Below are positions 200 to 10,684 of a stretch of 11,198 nt of DNA, in pieces. The notes beneath the pieces were generated by a model. That model was not told the DNA's origin and ran no database searches. It was given only the letters and a program-made list of their open reading frames with translations. Source of the stretch: Candidatus Liptonbacteria bacterium RIFCSPLOWO2_01_FULL_53_13. GTDB taxonomy: Bacteria > Patescibacteriota > Minisyncoccia > UBA6257 > 2-01-FULL-56-20. Both the position numbers and the translations under genes were made by a program. The stretch spans positions 18,310-29,507 of the forward strand of contig MHLB01000061.1 of assembly GCA_001818895.1 (NCBI GenBank), written 5' to 3'. Within the stretch, counting starts at the first letter, position 1. Each line of letters opens with the position of its first letter.

Positions 200-1489
200 T
201 TATTTCAGTAAATCGTCGAGTTCGCAAGAAATCAATGCCGACTTATTGAGTACAATCTGCTCTTTCGGATTTAAATTGTCGGCTGTCGTGCGGATAATTT
301 TGGTAATAATGCCATCTCCAAGCATTATCCTATTTATCTTTTTCAAATACCTCTCGGTTTTCTGATAAAAAAGATTCGCGTACTGCTTGAGTTTATCCTG
401 TGGATCTGGGCGCGAGCTCCAGCCGTTGCTCTTAAATTCAATTTTATCGTCCAGTTTTTTATCCGGTTCAATCGGCAAATCACCTTCTCCAAAGTTAATC
501 CAGTAATCACTGATGATATAAACAATCCGAACTACCCTGCCTTCTTCAGTGTTGTATTTATAAGTAAAATAAAAATTATCCGGCATTAAATCGTGGAATA
601 CCTCAATAGGCGCTTCGAGTGTCGTAACCGTTCGAATTTTATACTCGTTCAGAAGCCGCAAGTAACTTTCGTGCCAGTTCGCGAGCCAGTTTTCAATATA
701 GGTACGATTGATAAATAGCGGCAGGAGATCCTGCTTAAGATTTTCCCTGCTTACAGCGTTCATCTTTATTGTGAGCTTATCGAAAAGCGTGCGTAAATCT
801 TTCGCCTCTTCCACATCTTTCGCCTTTAGATAATCAAGGTCTGGCGCTACTTTTTTGTCCATGTACCACAGAAGGTCGTAAATATCCCGCCCCTTCTCTT
901 CGTACGTGGCTTTTCCCACGCCGCGGGTCCCACGGAGGAAGATAGCGGCAAGCTTACTCGCCATAAGCGCGCCCATATTGTAGGTCAAGATAACAAAAGA
1001 AAGCTGGTCACGATTTATCGGTCTGCGTTCGATTACGGTTTTGGGAGCGACAAAATGATTAAGATCGATTTTCACATGAACCTGTTTTGAGGAGTGTCCA
1101 AAGCTTAATGCCTCGCCGATATGAAATTTCAAAAGCAACCCCCTGCCGGTGGTTATTTTCACCGTGAGAAAATCAGCGCCAGCACCGTACATATTTTTGA
1201 AGTGATCTTCGGTTTCCTTCTTTAATTCCTCCAAAAACTTTTCTGTTATCGCGTGAGAAATTTCAAAATCCAGATCAACCGACATGCGATCAAGTCCATG
1301 GACAATGCGGAGCGCGGAGCCGCCGTACATAGTCCATTTATTGTATTCCGGATGATGGTAAATGAAATTAAGAATATAAAACTGCAGCTCCTCCTTGATG
1401 GCGTTGCGGCGCGTTTCTGCGTCAAGCTCGCCGTAGGCGGCAAGATCCTCAATCTTTCTTTTTAATATGGCTATAATCTGTTCACTCAT
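200..1489 (-). CDS. abiEii: AbiEii-type nucleotidyltransferase toxin (type IV toxin-antitoxin)
   Basis: This 429-residue protein carries the AbiEii/AbiGii/MenT nucleotidyltransferase motifs. Motif I is GGSALRIVHGLDRMSVDLDF at residues 56-75, with metal-binding Asp72 and Asp74. A third acidic site is at KIDLN (Asp142). The conserved lysine motif MASKLAAIFLR is at 177-187, and KGRDIYDLLWYM at 199-210 carries Lys199, Asp202 and Asp205. The relatives are the toxin half of type IV modules, and studied members transfer nucleotides to RNA, including tRNA 3' ends. The RNA target here is inferred only. The C-terminal ~200 residues are lysine-rich and I do not recognise them; the protein is somewhat longer than typical AbiEii proteins. 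Its ATG (1489-1487) overlaps the antitoxin stop by 8 nt, which indicates translational coupling and the usual antitoxin-first order. All motif residues look intact. Confidence 0.92.
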   Translation of the reverse strand: MSEQIIAILKRKIEDLAAYGELDAETRRNAIKEELQFYILNFIYHHPEYNKWTMYGGSALRIVHGLDRMSVDLDFEISHAITEKFLEELKKETEDHFKNMYGAGADFLTVKITTGRGLLLKFHIGEALSFGHSSKQVHVKIDLNHFVAPKTVIERRPINRDQLSFVILTYNMGALMASKLAAIFLRGTRGVGKATYEEKGRDIYDLLWYMDKKVAPDLDYLKAKDVEEAKDLRTLFDKLTIKMNAVSRENLKQDLLPLFINRTYIENWLANWHESYLRLLNEYKIRTVTTLEAPIEVFHDLMPDNFYFTYKYNTEEGRVVRIVYIISDYWINFGEGDLPIEPDKKLDDKIEFKSNGWSSRPDPQDKLKQYANLFYQKTERYLKKINRIMLGDGIITKIIRTTADNLNPKEQIVLNKSALISCELDDLLK

Positions 1490-2099
1490 GGAAGTATTTT
1501 TTAATCATTGCGTAAAACTTTGTCTGTTCTTCTTTGTCCATTTCCTCAATATCTATCCGTAATTCTTCAACCAACGCCTTGATTTTTTCCGCCGGAACGC
1601 CGCGAAACTGGTTGGTTCTGAAATACAGCAAATCAAACAATGCTTTCGGGGGCGAGGCTATAAAAAAATCAAACTTTCCTTTTACTAGAGAAAAATCCGA
1701 AAAAAGTTTTTTATTGATCGACTGATACGCAAAGTTGCCCGCCTTTGTCTGATAATCTCTTGTAACTTTAGGCGTTACTGAAGTAACCGAGCGTATCGCT
1801 TCCGTGGTGAGATTGTAATACTGGAGAGCCGCCCACGAACTTACGTACGATGGCGTGCGGATGACGTTGGCGAGATAAAAGGAATATGAAGCATCGTTCC
1901 TGTTCTTCTCAAAGAAATCTGCGGTTACATATAATCCTTTCTTGAGCTGGAAAATTTCTTTGTACTTCAAAAAACGGCTGACATAGGTGTTAACCGTGCT
2001 ATCTTTAAGCCCCAGCTGCTTACCGAACTGGTAAACGGTACTTTTGCCAAAGTGAGGCAAGGGTTTTAGCTGTTCTAAGAGGTTTTTCTTGCTTTTCAT
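1482..2099 (-). CDS. abiEi: AbiEi-type antitoxin / transcriptional repressor
   Basis: This 205-residue protein has an N-terminal winged helix-turn-helix at about residues 17-60 (STVYQFGKQLGLKDSTVNTY, then a wing ending KKGLYVTADFF). A C-terminal antitoxin domain follows, containing VIRTPSYVSSWAALQYY (residues 80-96) and ASPPKALFDLLYF (148-160). This is the layout of the AbiEi family, whose members neutralise AbiEii and repress their own promoter. The 8-nt overlap with the toxin gene makes the pair an operon. ATG 2099 fits the promoter, since only about 5 nt of leader would precede it. I see no Shine-Dalgarno, so the mRNA is nearly leaderless. Repression via the palindrome on the -10 box is inferred from the family. 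Confidence 0.9.
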   Translation of the reverse strand: MKSKKNLLEQLKPLPHFGKSTVYQFGKQLGLKDSTVNTYVSRFLKYKEIFQLKKGLYVTADFFEKNRNDASYSFYLANVIRTPSYVSSWAALQYYNLTTEAIRSVTSVTPKVTRDYQTKAGNFAYQSINKKLFSDFSLVKGKFDFFIASPPKALFDLLYFRTNQFRGVPAEKIKALVEELRIDIEEMDKEEQTKFYAMIKKYFHE

Positions 2100-2834: not shown

Positions 2835-3554
2835 TTATTTGATATCTACGTATTTTATTGGGTATTGGCTGCCCTGTTTCCAGTATTTTGCCACAGATGT
2901 ATAGAGGTATCTATCCCTGATCAAAGCTGGCGCTACGCTACCTTGAAACATGTGTCTGCCCCTCGCGCGAGAGGGAACCCATTTCTTGATAAGAAATATC
3001 TCTCGCACTATCCCTCGGTAAACCGCGCATGCAAATCTTATTTTGTTCACGCGAGCAAGGCTCACTTTCCAATGCTTTCTTGTTGCCTCATAAATTTGTT
3101 TCCGGGTCATAGTACGATTGAAATTATTATTGATGTTGATGAGGAGTACTGGCTCTCTAAAAACTGCGTCTTTCGCCTCGTATTTTATTTTGATTTCGGC
3201 TAAGCTCATTCTTCCCTTGTCTTCTGAATCATGACCAAGTACCAAGTTAGTAAGTTTTCCTTTGGTTATAAAATCAATTATGGCGCTCTCAACTTGAAAA
3301 GCTTCGTCGTTGGTAAGATCGTGCCGTAAGATAATGGGGTCGTATTTCCCGTCCGATTTTAAAATACTCTGAATCTTGCTAATTTTTAGAGTCTTGGGAG
3401 CTGAGGGGTGTAACGCCACCAAAGAGTGTTGATTGACCCTGTTCCCCTTTCCTTTCCCCACATAGAACACCTCCTCTGTCTTGGGGTCGACCAAGAGATA
3501 AACGTAGTATCCCAGCTTTTCGATAGTTGATTGAGAAAGTTTATATTTATCCAT
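2835..3554 (-). CDS. GIY-YIG nuclease-like protein (LEM-3-like/COG3680 type)
   Basis: This 239-residue protein has an N-terminal GIY-YIG fold of the LEM-3-like kind. GYYVYLLVDP (15-24) replaces GIY, FYVGKGKGNR (30-39) replaces YIG and carries the catalytic-type Arg39, and Glu89 in EAFQVESAIID fits the metal-binding glutamate. A second domain (about 115-239) contains PVLLININ, a TRKQIYEATRKHWKV helix, AVYRGIVREIF and a closing RDRYLYTSV...PIKYV. I remember a similar tail on other proteins of this family; its fold is unknown to me. DNA or RNA cleavage is the family expectation, with all key residues present. It is the first gene of a cluster with a KOW-like and a zinc-ribbon gene. A weak -10 (TAAAAT, 3560-3565) lies upstream with no good -35 or Shine-Dalgarno. 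Confidence 0.85.
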   Translation of the reverse strand: MDKYKLSQSTIEKLGYYVYLLVDPKTEEVFYVGKGKGNRVNQHSLVALHPSAPKTLKISKIQSILKSDGKYDPIILRHDLTNDEAFQVESAIIDFITKGKLTNLVLGHDSEDKGRMSLAEIKIKYEAKDAVFREPVLLININNNFNRTMTRKQIYEATRKHWKVSLARVNKIRFACAVYRGIVREIFLIKKWVPSRARGRHMFQGSVAPALIRDRYLYTSVAKYWKQGSQYPIKYVDIK

Positions 3555-3706: not shown

Positions 3707-3719
3707 CAAGAAGCCGTAA

Positions 3720-3740
3720 AGCCCCGCCGATGGCGGGGCT
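3720..3740 (-). terminator. Hairpin after tRNA-Asp, probable intrinsic terminator
   Basis: AGCCCCGCC and GGCGGGGCT make a perfect 9-bp GC-rich stem with a 3-nt loop, 16 nt past the tRNA 3' end. On the minus strand it is followed by TTTACGGCTTCTT, a broken T-tract. The position fits termination of the ligA-to-tRNA transcription unit. The weak T-tract leaves room for a processing stem or a dispersed repeat instead. Confidence 0.6.
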
Positions 3741-3755
3741 AACGGACTTCTAACG

Positions 3756-4044
3756 CGCGGGCGACGGGATTTGAACCCGTGGTCTTCTCCGTGCACGAAT
3801 CCATTATTTTCATAATGGTATGGACTATATCATCACCGTTTCTGTGCATACACAGATGAAGGTGCTCCGGTATCTAGTCTCTACGGCGCTCTCCGATTCC
3901 GTATCGGAGTTCCCACGGTGTTCGCATCCTCTTTTTTATAGGAGATTAGCCTTCACCGTTATCCCGGAGTTTTCATTCCAGAGTTTCCTCTGAAAGCTGC
4001 ACGATCTACAGGGAGACGTGTTAACCAGGCTACACCACGCCCGC
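3756..4044 (-). tRNA. tRNA-Asp: tRNA-Asp(GTC), interrupted by a group I intron
   Basis: Exon 1 is 4044-4008 (37 nt) and exon 2 is 3793-3756 (38 nt). Joined, they give a 75-nt cloverleaf with no mismatch: acceptor GCGGGCG/CGCCCGC, D-stem GTGT/ACAC with GG in the loop, anticodon stem TCTCC/GGAGA, a 5-nt variable loop, and T-stem ACGGG/CCCGT with loop TTCAAAT. The rebuilt anticodon loop is CTGTCAC. G34 and U35 come from exon 1 and C36 from exon 2. The known bacterial Asp identity elements are present (G73, G34, U35, C36, C38, G10). CCA is not encoded, so it must be added by a nucleotidyltransferase. The gene has no clear promoter of its own and its 5' end overlaps the homing-endonuclease ORF by 15 nt, which suggests expression from the ligA-side transcript. 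Without splicing there is no complete anticodon, so intron removal is required for function. Confidence 0.92.
3794..4007 (-). ncRNA. Group I self-splicing intron inside the tRNA-Asp anticodon
   Basis: The 214-nt intron shows the full group I helix order. P1: exon CTGT (4011-4008) with GCAG (4000-3997), U-G wobble at the 5' site. P2: CAGAG-GAAA-CTCTG (3992-3979). P3: CTCCGG (3969-3964) with CCGGAG (3870-3865). P4: ACGGTG (3959-3954) with CACCGT (3920-3915), enclosing a small P5. P6: 7-bp hairpin 3909-3891. P7: GACTA (3879-3875) with TAGTC (3827-3823). P8: CTGTG-TATG-CACAG (3855-3842). P9: 7-bp hairpin with GAAA loop (3818-3801). The conserved GATATAGTCC strand is present. The last intron base is G (3794), the expected omega-G. 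The 5' exon ends in U. CGTG before the P1 strand could pair with the 3' exon as P10. No ORF lies inside. Confidence 0.92.
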
Positions 4045-4713
4045 AACTTTTAGTATCTTGAAGGCTTTTTGGAATGTTGCATGTTTTCGCTCCAAAAATA
4101 ATCCTTCGGGCACATTATGATACATGAAACGGAATAATGCAATGCTGTCGTGTTGTCCAAAAACTAACTCATATCCTCCCTTTTTACCTCGCACGTTCCC
4201 ACCGCAAACCAACAGCTTGAGAACATTAAACAATCCGATAAGGAATTTTTCGCTACCAGAAGTAAAACTGGTGCTAAGTTGCCATTTCCATTCGTTTCTA
4301 TCCTTTCTCCAATATTTCCCAAATTGCACACACCCGTCGCCATCAAAATAACCTCTCGTAAAATCACCGAGAAATTGCTTGGGCACAGAAAGAAACGGTA
4401 ATGTTAAGCTCTTGTTTTGCGTTAACCCCAACTTTGTGAGGTTATCAAAGATAACCTTGCTCCCAATCTGGAGGCGGTATATCGGTTTCCATTTTTTATG
4501 CCCTACGCGTCGCAAGCCGATTTTGTGATTGGAACCTAAAACATCTCTAATTTTTTCAAGTAACTCTTTGTCGGTAATTTCAATGGCAATAAAATGGGTT
4601 TTTCGGTTCGTGCGATACATACTCCCGTCCGCAGTGAAAAAACCCAAAATGTACGCCATGTCCGGCGACCAGGTTTTGAAAAAATTCTGATTGACCGACT
4701 TCTGAACTGGCAC
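4030..4713 (-). CDS. LAGLIDADG homing endonuclease, free-standing, overlapping the tRNA-Asp 5' end
   Basis: This 227-residue protein has two LAGLIDADG motifs: AYILGFFTADGS at residues 20-31 (Asp29) and FTRGYFDGDGCV at 118-129 (Asp126). It is therefore a monomeric, two-motif endonuclease with both catalytic acids present. The family cuts long asymmetric DNA sites and drives intron or self mobility. The start is GTG 4713, two bases after the HAD stop, without a Shine-Dalgarno. The next ATG, at residue 19, would sit directly against the first motif. Unlike most intron-encoded enzymes it lies outside the intron, upstream of the tRNA. Its last codons (A-G-V-V-stop) are tRNA bases 1-15, the TAG lying in the D-arm. 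RNase P cleavage at 4044 would remove the stop codon, so tRNA maturation and an intact endonuclease mRNA should exclude each other. It is visibly more AT-rich than ligA, which fits transfer. Confidence 0.9.
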   Translation of the reverse strand: MPVQKSVNQNFFKTWSPDMAYILGFFTADGSMYRTNRKTHFIAIEITDKELLEKIRDVLGSNHKIGLRRVGHKKWKPIYRLQIGSKVIFDNLTKLGLTQNKSLTLPFLSVPKQFLGDFTRGYFDGDGCVQFGKYWRKDRNEWKWQLSTSFTSGSEKFLIGLFNVLKLLVCGGNVRGKKGGYELVFGQHDSIALFRFMYHNVPEGLFLERKHATFQKAFKILKVAGVV

Positions 4714-8761: not shown

Positions 8762-10684
8762 CTAAGATTCAACATTCTTGCGGAGACGGAATACGAGCGA
8801 GCTATCGGGAAGCCATCTGCTGTCGGGACGGACGATGTAGGCGTGCAGCCACGGGTCAACGGCAGGGCGGCCGAGGCTGAAGACGCTCGGGTGGCCGTCG
8901 GAATCAAAAATTTGATTCATCGCAATACAGAGATATTCGCCCATGGGCTGATTGGTATATTGCAGGCGGTATTGCGGACCGGTTTCCGCGGGGCAAAGTT
9001 CCAATCCCAAGAACTCTGCTTTGTCGTATATCTCTTGCGTTGTTGCGCCATAAGGAAATCCGAGGTCTTTCACCGAGAGGCGCACAAGGACAATATCCTC
9101 CGGTTGTTCCAATGTTGCAAATTTCTTTCCCTCTATGTCATTCCCTTCAAGCATGCTCAAAGCCCACTGGCTTATGTTTATTTTTTTCTCATGATTCGCC
9201 TGTTCTATCTGCCGCTTGAGTTCTTCTTCTGATAAAGTGCCGCCCTTGATAGTGCGCCTGCCAATCCGCCCTTCCGGGAACGAGGTATAGATGTGCTCAA
9301 TGTCGTGCTTTTGGATGGCGCTAAAGATGCCGGACGCAAGTGGCCCGATATAGGCCTTCGTGTTCCCTTTGATATCGGCTAAGCTCCGCGCAATTTGGCC
9401 TTTATCGCACTCAAATACAATCGGCATATCTTCTTCGGAGTTCCTTTCTGCGCGAACTTTTTTGACGCGCGGATCGTTCGTCCCATAGCCAAAGCTCTCG
9501 ATGGGAGCATTGATCTCATAGAGGAAAACTAGATCGTCTTTTGTAAGCGCTTCGCCAGCTTCGGTTTTGTTCTTGATCGCGGTAAGTAGCGTCATATCGC
9601 GAGCTTTCTTCTCGTATCTTTTGCCGTCTGGGAGACCGGCGAGTTTTTCCTGAACGACACTGTTGATGTGGGAATCAAGATGCTCGTCTTCGGCAACGCC
9701 ACGGACTTCGGAGATAATCCCATTTTCACTCACCATAACCACGCGCGGAACGGTTGGCTTGCCTTCCTTGTCCAGGGAATAAAAAATCTCAAGGTCGTTT
9801 TCTTTAAGATACCTTTGTGCCATTGATTCGCCTCGCAGGCACCATCCGGTGCCATACGGGGCGATGGATTGAACGAGCCGGGTGGCATCGGACCCTTTTG
9901 GGTATTTTACCCACTTTCCTTCGGTGACGCTAAGCAGTTCCTCGGGAATGGGCTTGAACTCTTCAACGGCTAGGGCGTAGAGCTTGGCGAAGTTCTTCTG
10001 TTTGAGAAACTGGAAAAATCTTTGTTTTGTCCCTTCTTCTATGTCGTAGCCGAATTTAAGCGGTTCTCCTCTTGCTTGCCGCTCAAACGATTCAAGCACA
10101 ATAGCAAGGGCCTCGCGGTTCAGGTCGGGAAACGGGGCAATGGCTCCACCAGTCCGCTCGGAAAAAGATTTTTTCTTTTTGTCATATCGGCCCATCCGCA
10201 ATATGCTCCGAAAAGCGAAGTATTTGAGATAATCGGGATATTTTGCGTCTCCCGAAGAAAGATAATCAACCCATTGATCAAGGGAATTTTGTTGGTCGAC
10301 TATGATGGTTTCTGAAAGCTCTTTCCTTATCTCATCCGGTATGGCATCAAGAGGGCGGCCCTCTTCCTCGTGCCTCTTCTGGACGGATGCAAAATATGCT
10401 TCTGGAATATCCTCGGGCTTGATAACGAATCGCTCGTGCAAAGAACGTTTCAGCATTTCGAGATTCCTCCGTTGTCTGTCAAAATCCGCATGACCTTTCA
10501 GTTCGGGAGGGTGGATAACATTCTTCAGCCGGTCAAGATAATTCTCTATACGGATTTCGGCATCCTCTGCCGTACCTGTTGGAAGCTTCTTGCCGATACG
10601 TTTTTCCGTGCGCTTTGTGGCCGCCACCACTTCTGGGGCGTTATGCAAGCCATATTTTTCTCTAAGAAAACCAGGATTCTCCAT
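8762..10684 (-). CDS. Large conserved-looking protein of unknown function (640 aa)
   Basis: I do not recognise a named family. The protein is soluble, charged and largely helical, without a signal peptide or membrane segment. Its middle has a motif-like core at about 274-334: APYGTGWCLRGESMAQ, then EIFYSLD, PRVVMV and GIISEVRGV. The single-Cys GTGWC turn and the following strand pairs look like an enzyme or binding pocket, but that is inference. The last ~80 residues (FDSDGHPSVFSLGR...SRWLPDSSLVFRLRK) look like a separate beta-rich module with a Trp/Arg-rich end; I recall similar tails on other CPR orphan proteins, with low certainty. ATG 10684 is fixed by a TGTTATTAT box ending exactly 6 nt upstream. 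It sits between prepilin peptidase and prepilin genes, yet has its own promoter, so a pilus role is only possible. Confidence 0.85.
   Translation of the reverse strand: MENPGFLREKYGLHNAPEVVAATKRTEKRIGKKLPTGTAEDAEIRIENYLDRLKNVIHPPELKGHADFDRQRRNLEMLKRSLHERFVIKPEDIPEAYFASVQKRHEEEGRPLDAIPDEIRKELSETIIVDQQNSLDQWVDYLSSGDAKYPDYLKYFAFRSILRMGRYDKKKKSFSERTGGAIAPFPDLNREALAIVLESFERQARGEPLKFGYDIEEGTKQRFFQFLKQKNFAKLYALAVEEFKPIPEELLSVTEGKWVKYPKGSDATRLVQSIAPYGTGWCLRGESMAQRYLKENDLEIFYSLDKEGKPTVPRVVMVSENGIISEVRGVAEDEHLDSHINSVVQEKLAGLPDGKRYEKKARDMTLLTAIKNKTEAGEALTKDDLVFLYEINAPIESFGYGTNDPRVKKVRAERNSEEDMPIVFECDKGQIARSLADIKGNTKAYIGPLASGIFSAIQKHDIEHIYTSFPEGRIGRRTIKGGTLSEEELKRQIEQANHEKKINISQWALSMLEGNDIEGKKFATLEQPEDIVLVRLSVKDLGFPYGATTQEIYDKAEFLGLELCPAETGPQYRLQYTNQPMGEYLCIAMNQIFDSDGHPSVFSLGRPAVDPWLHAYIVRPDSRWLPDSSLVFRLRKNVES

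Follow-up and report, generated by a model that had tools for sequence, protein, structure and literature searches.

A LAGLIDADG gene family flush with bacterial tRNA genes: a probable tRNA-anchored homing endonuclease with an optional group I intron

Introduction

What holds together a LAGLIDADG endonuclease gene, the tRNA gene into which its reading frame runs, and a group I intron that splits this tRNA gene and has no reading frame of its own? The enzyme might exist to move the intron, the shared nucleotides might regulate one of the genes, or the tRNA gene might itself be the place on which the endonuclease gene depends. We addressed this question for a locus in a 778-kb draft genome of Candidatus Liptonbacteria; the 11,198-nt stretch that was analyzed is called the window below. 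We think it probable that the gene encodes a free-standing homing endonuclease of the LAGLIDADG type, that a tRNA gene serves as its anchor and can move with it, and that the intron is optional.

The endonuclease gene ends inside a split tRNA-Asp gene

The features of the locus are listed in Table 1. A sequence-only reading of the window had placed the LAGLIDADG gene outside the intron and had its last four codons and stop supplied by tRNA nucleotides 1 to 15. The sequence, the ORF list and ARAGORN bear this out: the ORF at 4713-4030(-) closes with GCG GGC GTG GTG TAG (Ala-Gly-Val-Val-stop). With introns allowed, ARAGORN calls tRNA-Asp(GTC) at c[3755,4044] with a 214-nt intron after tRNA nt 37; within the anticodon, the interruption falls between nt 35 and 36. 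The exon 1/intron junction is the same in homologous loci. At its default settings ARAGORN called no tRNA here, and intron-bearing tRNA-Asp genes of this kind escape a default tRNA scan.

Table 1. Features of the endonuclease/tRNA-Asp locus, in window coordinates
Feature	Position	Strand	Details	Source
LAGLIDADG homing endonuclease gene, free-standing, double-motif (activity predicted)	4030..4713	(-)	227 aa, GTG start	
Endonuclease ORF/tRNA overlap	4030..4044	(-)	four last sense codons and stop = tRNA-Asp nt 1-15	sequence, ORF list, ARAGORN with introns
tRNA-Asp(GTC) exon 1	4008..4044	(-)	37 nt, ends ...CCCTGT after anticodon nt 35	ARAGORN with introns
Group I intron, ORF-less	3794..4007	(-)	214 nt; P1 U.G at 5' splice site, 3' terminal G	Rfam RF00028
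tRNA-Asp(GTC) exon 2	3755..3793	(-)	begins CACGGAGA	ARAGORN with introns
Terminator-like hairpin (putative function)	3709..3751	(-)	directly 3' of tRNA	inverted repeat I1, 20-nt arms, 75% complementary

Pfam finds two LAGLIDADG matches in the 227-aa protein (PF14528, E 2.5e-12; PF00961, E 4.9e-5) and LAGLIDADG families only, hence no GIY-YIG catalytic domain. Both motifs have their acidic residues, the predicted fold is that of LAGLIDADG proteins, and the fold matches include the bI3 maturase (2ab5) and a bifunctional protein (1p8k). The ORF lies outside introns and inteins, so the locus is not a mobile intron with its own endonuclease. All nine pairs of genes compared gave dN/dS values of 0.06 to 0.33, indicating purifying selection. 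We take the protein to be a putative nuclease. Decaying copies also occur (L268, L311 and L390, the last with two stops), and fragments as well as copies broken by stops are among the homologues. The nearest endonuclease relative by tree path, L022, is on a contig titled Liptonbacteria. The wider family is large, with 5,425 of 8,000 scored candidate proteins matching the endonuclease profile.

The intron was recognized by cmscan with an E-value threshold (Intron_gpI at 3801-4017(-), E = 1.2e-8), its 39.6 bits falling below the gathering score of 50; at the gathering threshold the window gave no match. We assign it to group I on its conserved core, the U.G pair, the terminal G and covarying pairs, although the window copy's own Rfam score is below the cut-off. 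Among 20 aligned introns, the 5' splice-site U.G pair was present in all 20, and 28 of 51 predicted pairs showed changes on both sides. No ORF of at least 60 aa lies inside the intron on its own strand.

A tRNA gene follows the endonuclease gene throughout the family

We searched a one-genome-per-species collection for relatives, obtained 461 candidate stretches and fetched the best 80. Two were cut by contig ends (L047 and L067). With introns allowed in ARAGORN, 77 of the remaining 78 have tRNA-Asp directly downstream on the same strand; the exception, L072, has a tRNA-Val first and tRNA-Asp 195 nt on, and it was dropped along with the two cut loci. The distance from the stop to tRNA nt 1 ranged from -93 to +75 nt in the 77 tRNA-Asp-linked loci, with -10 and -15 the commonest values. 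Across the best 80 loci, 66 of 76 endonuclease ORFs had their stop within -30 to +25 nt of a same-strand tRNA start, compared with 9 of 327 other ORFs of at least 150 aa. The position of the endonuclease gene at the tRNA start is thus far beyond chance.

The same arrangement was seen at other tRNAs. We inspected 82 more homologous loci from the order and the class, mostly belonging to remoter subfamilies, and 68 are followed by a tRNA: Leu-GAG (30), Cys (18), Leu-TAA (9), Phe (4), Leu-TAG (3), Leu-CAG (2), Leu-AAG (1) and Asp (1). Eight of the other 14 lie right after tRNA-Leu(CAA), four are at a contig end and two are without a tRNA. We conclude that the tRNA-flush arrangement is a trait of the family and is not peculiar to the window locus. 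The pattern suggests a large bacterial homing gene family, apparently organized by tRNA species, and with it many compact LAGLIDADG enzymes that have a predictable, highly conserved candidate target. In the accessible portion of the open literature, we found no description of tRNA-flush LAGLIDADG genes.

Presence of the gene is patchy. Within the order, 21 of 244 genomes carry the Asp-linked gene, and the same site is empty in relatives, including members of the same genus. Two paralogues occur in the window's own genome: one (L354, on G000:C39) overlaps tRNA-Leu(CAG) by 10 nt, and the other (L353, on G000:C2) has no directly adjoining tRNA, a called tRNA-Cys being 546 nt away. Among 79 distant homologues on viral contigs, one adjoins a tRNA; in this case (L135, a 427-kb contig) the stop of the LAGLIDADG homologue and the start of tRNA-Trp have one base in common.

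The overlap is probably a by-product of flush insertion

The sequence-only reading had seen in the overlap a built-in off switch: RNase P cleavage at the tRNA 5' end would remove the stop codon and so pit tRNA production against endonuclease translation on one transcript. The stop does lie inside the tRNA in 52 of the 77 genes, mostly at tRNA nt 8 to 10 (29 genes) or 13 to 15 (15 genes). A switch, however, needs a conserved overlap, and 25 of the 77 genes have a stop of their own ahead of the tRNA. The fraction of in-tRNA stops is also little above the roughly 52% expected for an unconstrained tail, a value that depends on which tail codons are taken as free, and the tail residues encoded by the tRNA show no conservation.

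The end of the conserved RK codons lies a median of 41 nt from tRNA nt 1 (interquartile range, 35 to 48; n = 77), with medians of 38.5 nt for genes that stop in the tRNA and 50 nt for genes with their own stop. Once the gene ends about 40 nt from the tRNA, a borrowed stop is near chance. On this view, the two genes overlap because the endonuclease gene sits flush with the tRNA: past its conserved core there is hardly any sequence except the tRNA for the ORF to end in, and the TAG of the tRNA becomes the stop. The overlap is therefore best read as a by-product of flush insertion rather than as a switch.

One element of the switch proposal, the shared transcript, gains indirect support from the placement of promoters. 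Over the 70 nt that precede them, gene-free tRNA-Asp genes show a clear sigma70-like promoter signal (z 16.8, n = 116; control region 300 to 400 nt upstream, z 0.9). Ahead of gene-bearing tRNA-Asp little of this signal remains (z 2.1, n = 77; within-gene control, z -0.6), and a modest one (z 4.5, n = 70) is seen in the 100 nt that lead up to the endonuclease gene. The scan used generic sigma70-like promoter weights instead of those of a dedicated tool, and the copy in the window has a low score. Because the promoter signal is displaced, the gene and tRNA-Asp are probably cotranscribed, which would leave their separation to RNase P. A single transcript is what the off switch would require as well; with overlap missing in 25 of the 77 genes and an unconserved tail, we nevertheless regard an off-switch role for the overlap as very unlikely. 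A promoter embedded in the 3' end of the gene was considered and set aside as weak: synonymous shuffles reached the observed mean in 1 of 200 cases, and a plain shuffle gave no excess.

The intron is enriched beside the gene, yet most genes lack it

Does the endonuclease serve the intron? The intron is present in 24 of the 77 tRNA-Asp-linked loci among the best 80 of 461; the other 53 genes adjoin a tRNA-Asp with an uninterrupted anticodon loop. Its distribution is nonetheless linked to that of the gene. Among the order's 244 genomes, the intron occurs in 6 of the 21 that have the Asp-linked gene and in 1 of the 223 that lack it (p = 1.3e-6). For the class, sampled with 383 genomes, the intron model gives 9 of 32 with the gene and 2 of 350 without (p = 3.2e-9).

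These counts were obtained as follows. The order's intron counts come from the 30 best-scoring intron matches, and every remaining genome was counted as gene-negative. Of the 244, 181 gave a match to a plain tRNA-Asp; when 56 others were rechecked, a T32 variant pattern located four more, and an exon-2 pattern returned the known G034 intron and no further one. About 50 gene-free genomes of the order remain without a located tRNA-Asp, and leaving such genomes out gives 6 of 21 versus about 1 of 171 (p = 5.5e-6). The class's intron counts cover matches with E up to 1e-30, of which those of at least about 157 bits were fetched. The intron model missed one intron of the class (in G400), so model-only counts were used there. 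Weaker endonuclease matches in the class (most at or below 111 bits, a few at 146 to 150), fetched in part, were taken as not Asp-linked, and G460, at a contig end, was dropped from the class table. L245/L350, whose tRNA ARAGORN had misread as Asp, was also dropped. Conversely, four loci called Tyr, His or Ala by ARAGORN (L036, L046, L365 and L400) were counted as intron-bearing tRNA-Asp after their junctions were read, as was, after reading of the sequence, L363/L407 of G579, for which ARAGORN called no tRNA-Asp.

A tree with 30 intron-bearing and 59 intronless members shows 21 changes of intron state. Clustering on it is only weak, the shuffled mean being 25.6 and a value of 21 being reached in 8 of 500 shuffles. 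Intron and endonuclease distances are modestly correlated (Mantel r 0.34, 0 of 2,000 permutations; 0.29 and 1 of 2,000 without three divergent introns). The same model also matches introns in putative tRNA-Thr(TGT) and tRNA-Asn(GTT) genes, at loci where no endonuclease match was found, and the sister subfamilies at tRNA-Cys, -Leu and -Phe have no introns. We conclude that the intron and the gene are distinct elements whose co-occurrence far exceeds chance. The best reading is that the intron is an optional passenger, repeatedly gained and lost.

An ORF-less group I intron beside a free-standing endonuclease gene, with linked distributions, is what collaborative homing would produce, as the sequence-only reading had proposed. 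By cutting tRNA-Asp exactly where the intron inserts (anticodon nt 35/36), the hallmark of this mode of homing, the enzyme would spread the intron, and the intron would protect the tRNA. The comparison of loci with and without the intron upholds the link itself, in a one-sided form: an intron-bearing tRNA-Asp is far commoner where the gene is present, yet most genes do without the intron. That the enzyme exists to drive the intron fits poorly with the 53 intronless loci, the intronless Cys, Leu and Phe subfamilies and the 21 changes of state. Two genomes of one genus, G148 with the gene and G147 without it, also have identical intronless tRNA-Asp genes. Leu-linked relatives adjoin isoacceptors with differing anticodons (GAG, TAG, CAG and AAG), which makes an anticodon-centered target unlikely for them. 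A putative target that coincides with the intron insertion site is thus indirectly disfavored.

Possible traces of the gene at gene-free loci bear on the same question. In two of three gene-free, intron-bearing tRNA-Asp loci (L349 and L359, not L362), a short match to the C terminus of the gene lies flush at the tRNA, which would favor collaborative homing. A C-terminal profile scored 14.6 to 21.4 bits at four gene-free loci and no more than 5.6 in three controls. Promoter-like hexamers are present in all four stretches (TTGATT-N17-TAGAAT or TAAAAT in L202 and L349; TATAAT in L359 and L301), so they could be promoters instead of relics. The full-length profile did not support relics, the best score in 121 upstream regions being 6.0 bits and that in controls 3.7. 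Taking both sides together, we consider collaborative homing an unlikely account of this family.

A LAGLIDADG protein beside a split tRNA gene could alternatively be a maturase, or another processing factor, for the adjoining tRNA-Asp. Its fixed synteny with one tRNA would fit, and some LAGLIDADG proteins are maturases, 2ab5 and 1p8k being among the fold matches. Two thirds of the tRNAs, however, have no intron to splice, and the acidic residues of the motifs are as well conserved beside intronless tRNAs as beside split ones. The patchy presence of the gene (21 of 244 genomes) and the occurrence of related proteins at many different tRNAs also argue against such a role, to which we give hardly any credence.

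tRNA-Asp appears to have been exchanged with the gene in two of three genera

Three genera provided syntenic pairs with and without the gene. In the first, G147 has tRNA-Met, a 63-nt spacer and tRNA-Asp; in G148 the endonuclease gene replaces the spacer, and both tRNAs are unchanged. Exchange of the tRNA is therefore not invariable, and the target need not lie wholly within it. In the second, G185 (with the gene) and G059 (without) have flanks that are 78 to 88% identical on either side and a tRNA-Met that is 100% identical, and their tRNA-Asp genes are 76% identical. The third pair, G060 (with) and G196 (without), gave 84 to 89% for the flanks, 96 to 100% for tRNA-Met and 73% for tRNA-Asp. 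G186, more distantly related to G185 within the genus, can be aligned along the left flank alone (69.5%) and is uninformative.

The tRNA-Asp of G185 is 97% identical to a gene-adjoining copy in G223, from another family, and also 91 to 92% identical to several gene-free tRNA-Asp genes of other families. For G060, the five nearest tRNA-Asp genes all adjoin the endonuclease gene in other genomes. By sequence comparison, then, tRNA-Asp appears to have been replaced together with the gene in two of the three genera, which gives at least two apparent cases of an essential tRNA gene exchanged in this way.

Two further genera, without alignable flanks, gave tRNA-Asp identities of 75% (G048 and G177) and of 81% and 96% (G003 with G024 and G030, respectively). 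Over all within-genus pairs, tRNA-Asp identity in the 7 pairs that differ in the gene was not significantly below that in the 47 gene-free pairs (Mann-Whitney p = 0.09). In 10 of 14 locus pairs that share a DNA block of at least 600 nt spanning the gene and extending to the tRNA, the block ends within 5 nt of the tRNA 3' end; this is expected if the gene and tRNA form a unit, and equally if only those parts are constrained. A nearest-tRNA test over all loci (84% versus 44% when shuffled) was rejected as confounded, because gene-bearing loci were sampled more widely than gene-free ones.

A tRNA-anchored homing gene is the probable explanation

In the explanation we favor, an essential tRNA gene serves as the anchor, and the endonuclease gene would have been inserted flush at the 5' end of tRNA-Asp. 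The putative enzyme would cut gene-free alleles in or beside tRNA-Asp, and the break would be repaired from a donor copy by gene conversion. The conversion tract could import the endonuclease gene and the donor tRNA-Asp, along with the intron if the donor has one. Flanking tRNAs (tRNA-Asp and, often, tRNA-Met upstream) could supply natural homology between species whose intergenic DNA has diverged. This makes it possible to test selfish endonucleases as drivers of tRNA-gene turnover in Patescibacteria.

A stronger form would make the locus a gene drive on an essential tRNA, a "homing-rescue" unit in which the enzyme breaks the resident tRNA-Asp and the surviving template brings both the endonuclease gene and a recoded, cleavage-resistant tRNA-Asp. 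If true, repeated sweeps would explain why tRNA-Asp differs more than tRNA-Met in two syntenic same-genus pairs. It would also explain the subfamilies for tRNA-Asp, -Cys, -Leu and -Phe, and by displacing the promoter that belongs to the tRNA the gene would become still harder to lose. The identical tRNA-Asp genes of G148 and G147 speak against it, and no resistance signature was seen in the tRNA by eye, D-stems varying widely with and without the gene. We regard this stronger form as speculative and rather improbable.

The closest parallel to the tRNA-anchored gene that we favor is SegB of phages T4 and T6. According to two reports (PMC2988022, PMC13096335), SegB is a free-standing endonuclease gene between tRNA genes (in T4, tRNA-Arg and tRNA-Ile) that is frequently associated with tRNAs in phages and inherited at high frequency; cuts in T6 were mapped within tRNA genes, and the target in T4 is listed as the tRNA intergenic region. 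Both are thus free-standing endonuclease genes adjoining tRNA genes. SegB, however, is a phage-borne GIY-YIG enzyme, whereas the window gene encodes a LAGLIDADG protein on a bacterial chromosome, and its family lies flush with the tRNA, has subfamilies tied to tRNA kinds and sometimes has a group I intron in the tRNA. We view the window family as a bacterial LAGLIDADG, tRNA-by-tRNA counterpart of SegB, with predicted activity.

Other systems resemble the locus in part. Collaborative (trans) homing, as described in PMC3984707, likewise combines an ORF-less group I intron with a free-standing endonuclease and nonrandom co-occurrence; most members of the window family, by contrast, are intronless, and coincidence of cut site and intron site is indirectly disfavored. 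The archaeal LAGLIDADG enzymes I-Tsp061I and I-DmoI are intron encoded, according to their PDB titles, whereas the window gene lies outside any intron. LAGLIDADG endonucleases in rRNA insertions of the CPR belong to the same bacterial group and enzyme family but are sited inside rRNA genes (PMC11270868); the main text of that paper does not contain the word tRNA.

Other observations at the locus and its relatives

Two loci on contigs titled Nomurabacteria and Daviesbacteria (L061 and L084) share a gene, tRNA and intron that are 84% identical, with similarity ending at the tRNA 3' end; horizontal transfer or misbinning could account for this. No exact 12-nt copy of the tRNA 5' end was found upstream of the gene in the window or in any of 78 gene-bearing loci. 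In L363 (G579), near 1400-1480, an 11-nt copy of tRNA-Asp 5'-end sequence lies just past the endonuclease match, about 75 nt before the real tRNA. In 6 of 78 gene-bearing and 7 of 122 gene-free loci (L028, L063, L076, L088, L094, L095, L182, L184, L186, L187, L193, L262 and L317), an exact 16-nt copy of the tRNA-Asp 3' end follows some 100 to 200 nt after the tRNA. Being about equally common with and without the gene, these copies are unrelated to it; they perhaps mark another small element at the tRNA 3' end. At L221:1176-1274, a truncated tRNA-Met copy runs into a palindromic stretch directly before an intact tRNA-Met.

Within the window, a LEM-3-like GIY-YIG gene (2835-3554(-); PF22945, E 6.4e-13) lies 200 nt downstream of the tRNA. 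It was rejected as a part of the endonuclease/tRNA unit, being matched only in the window's own genome among 61 searched. A 640-aa protein encoded at 8762-10684(-) has no Pfam match. An AbiEii-like nucleotidyltransferase gene (PF08843) at 200-2099(-) has an unassigned 205-aa partner just upstream on the same strand with an 8-nt overlap, resembling an AbiE-type pair.
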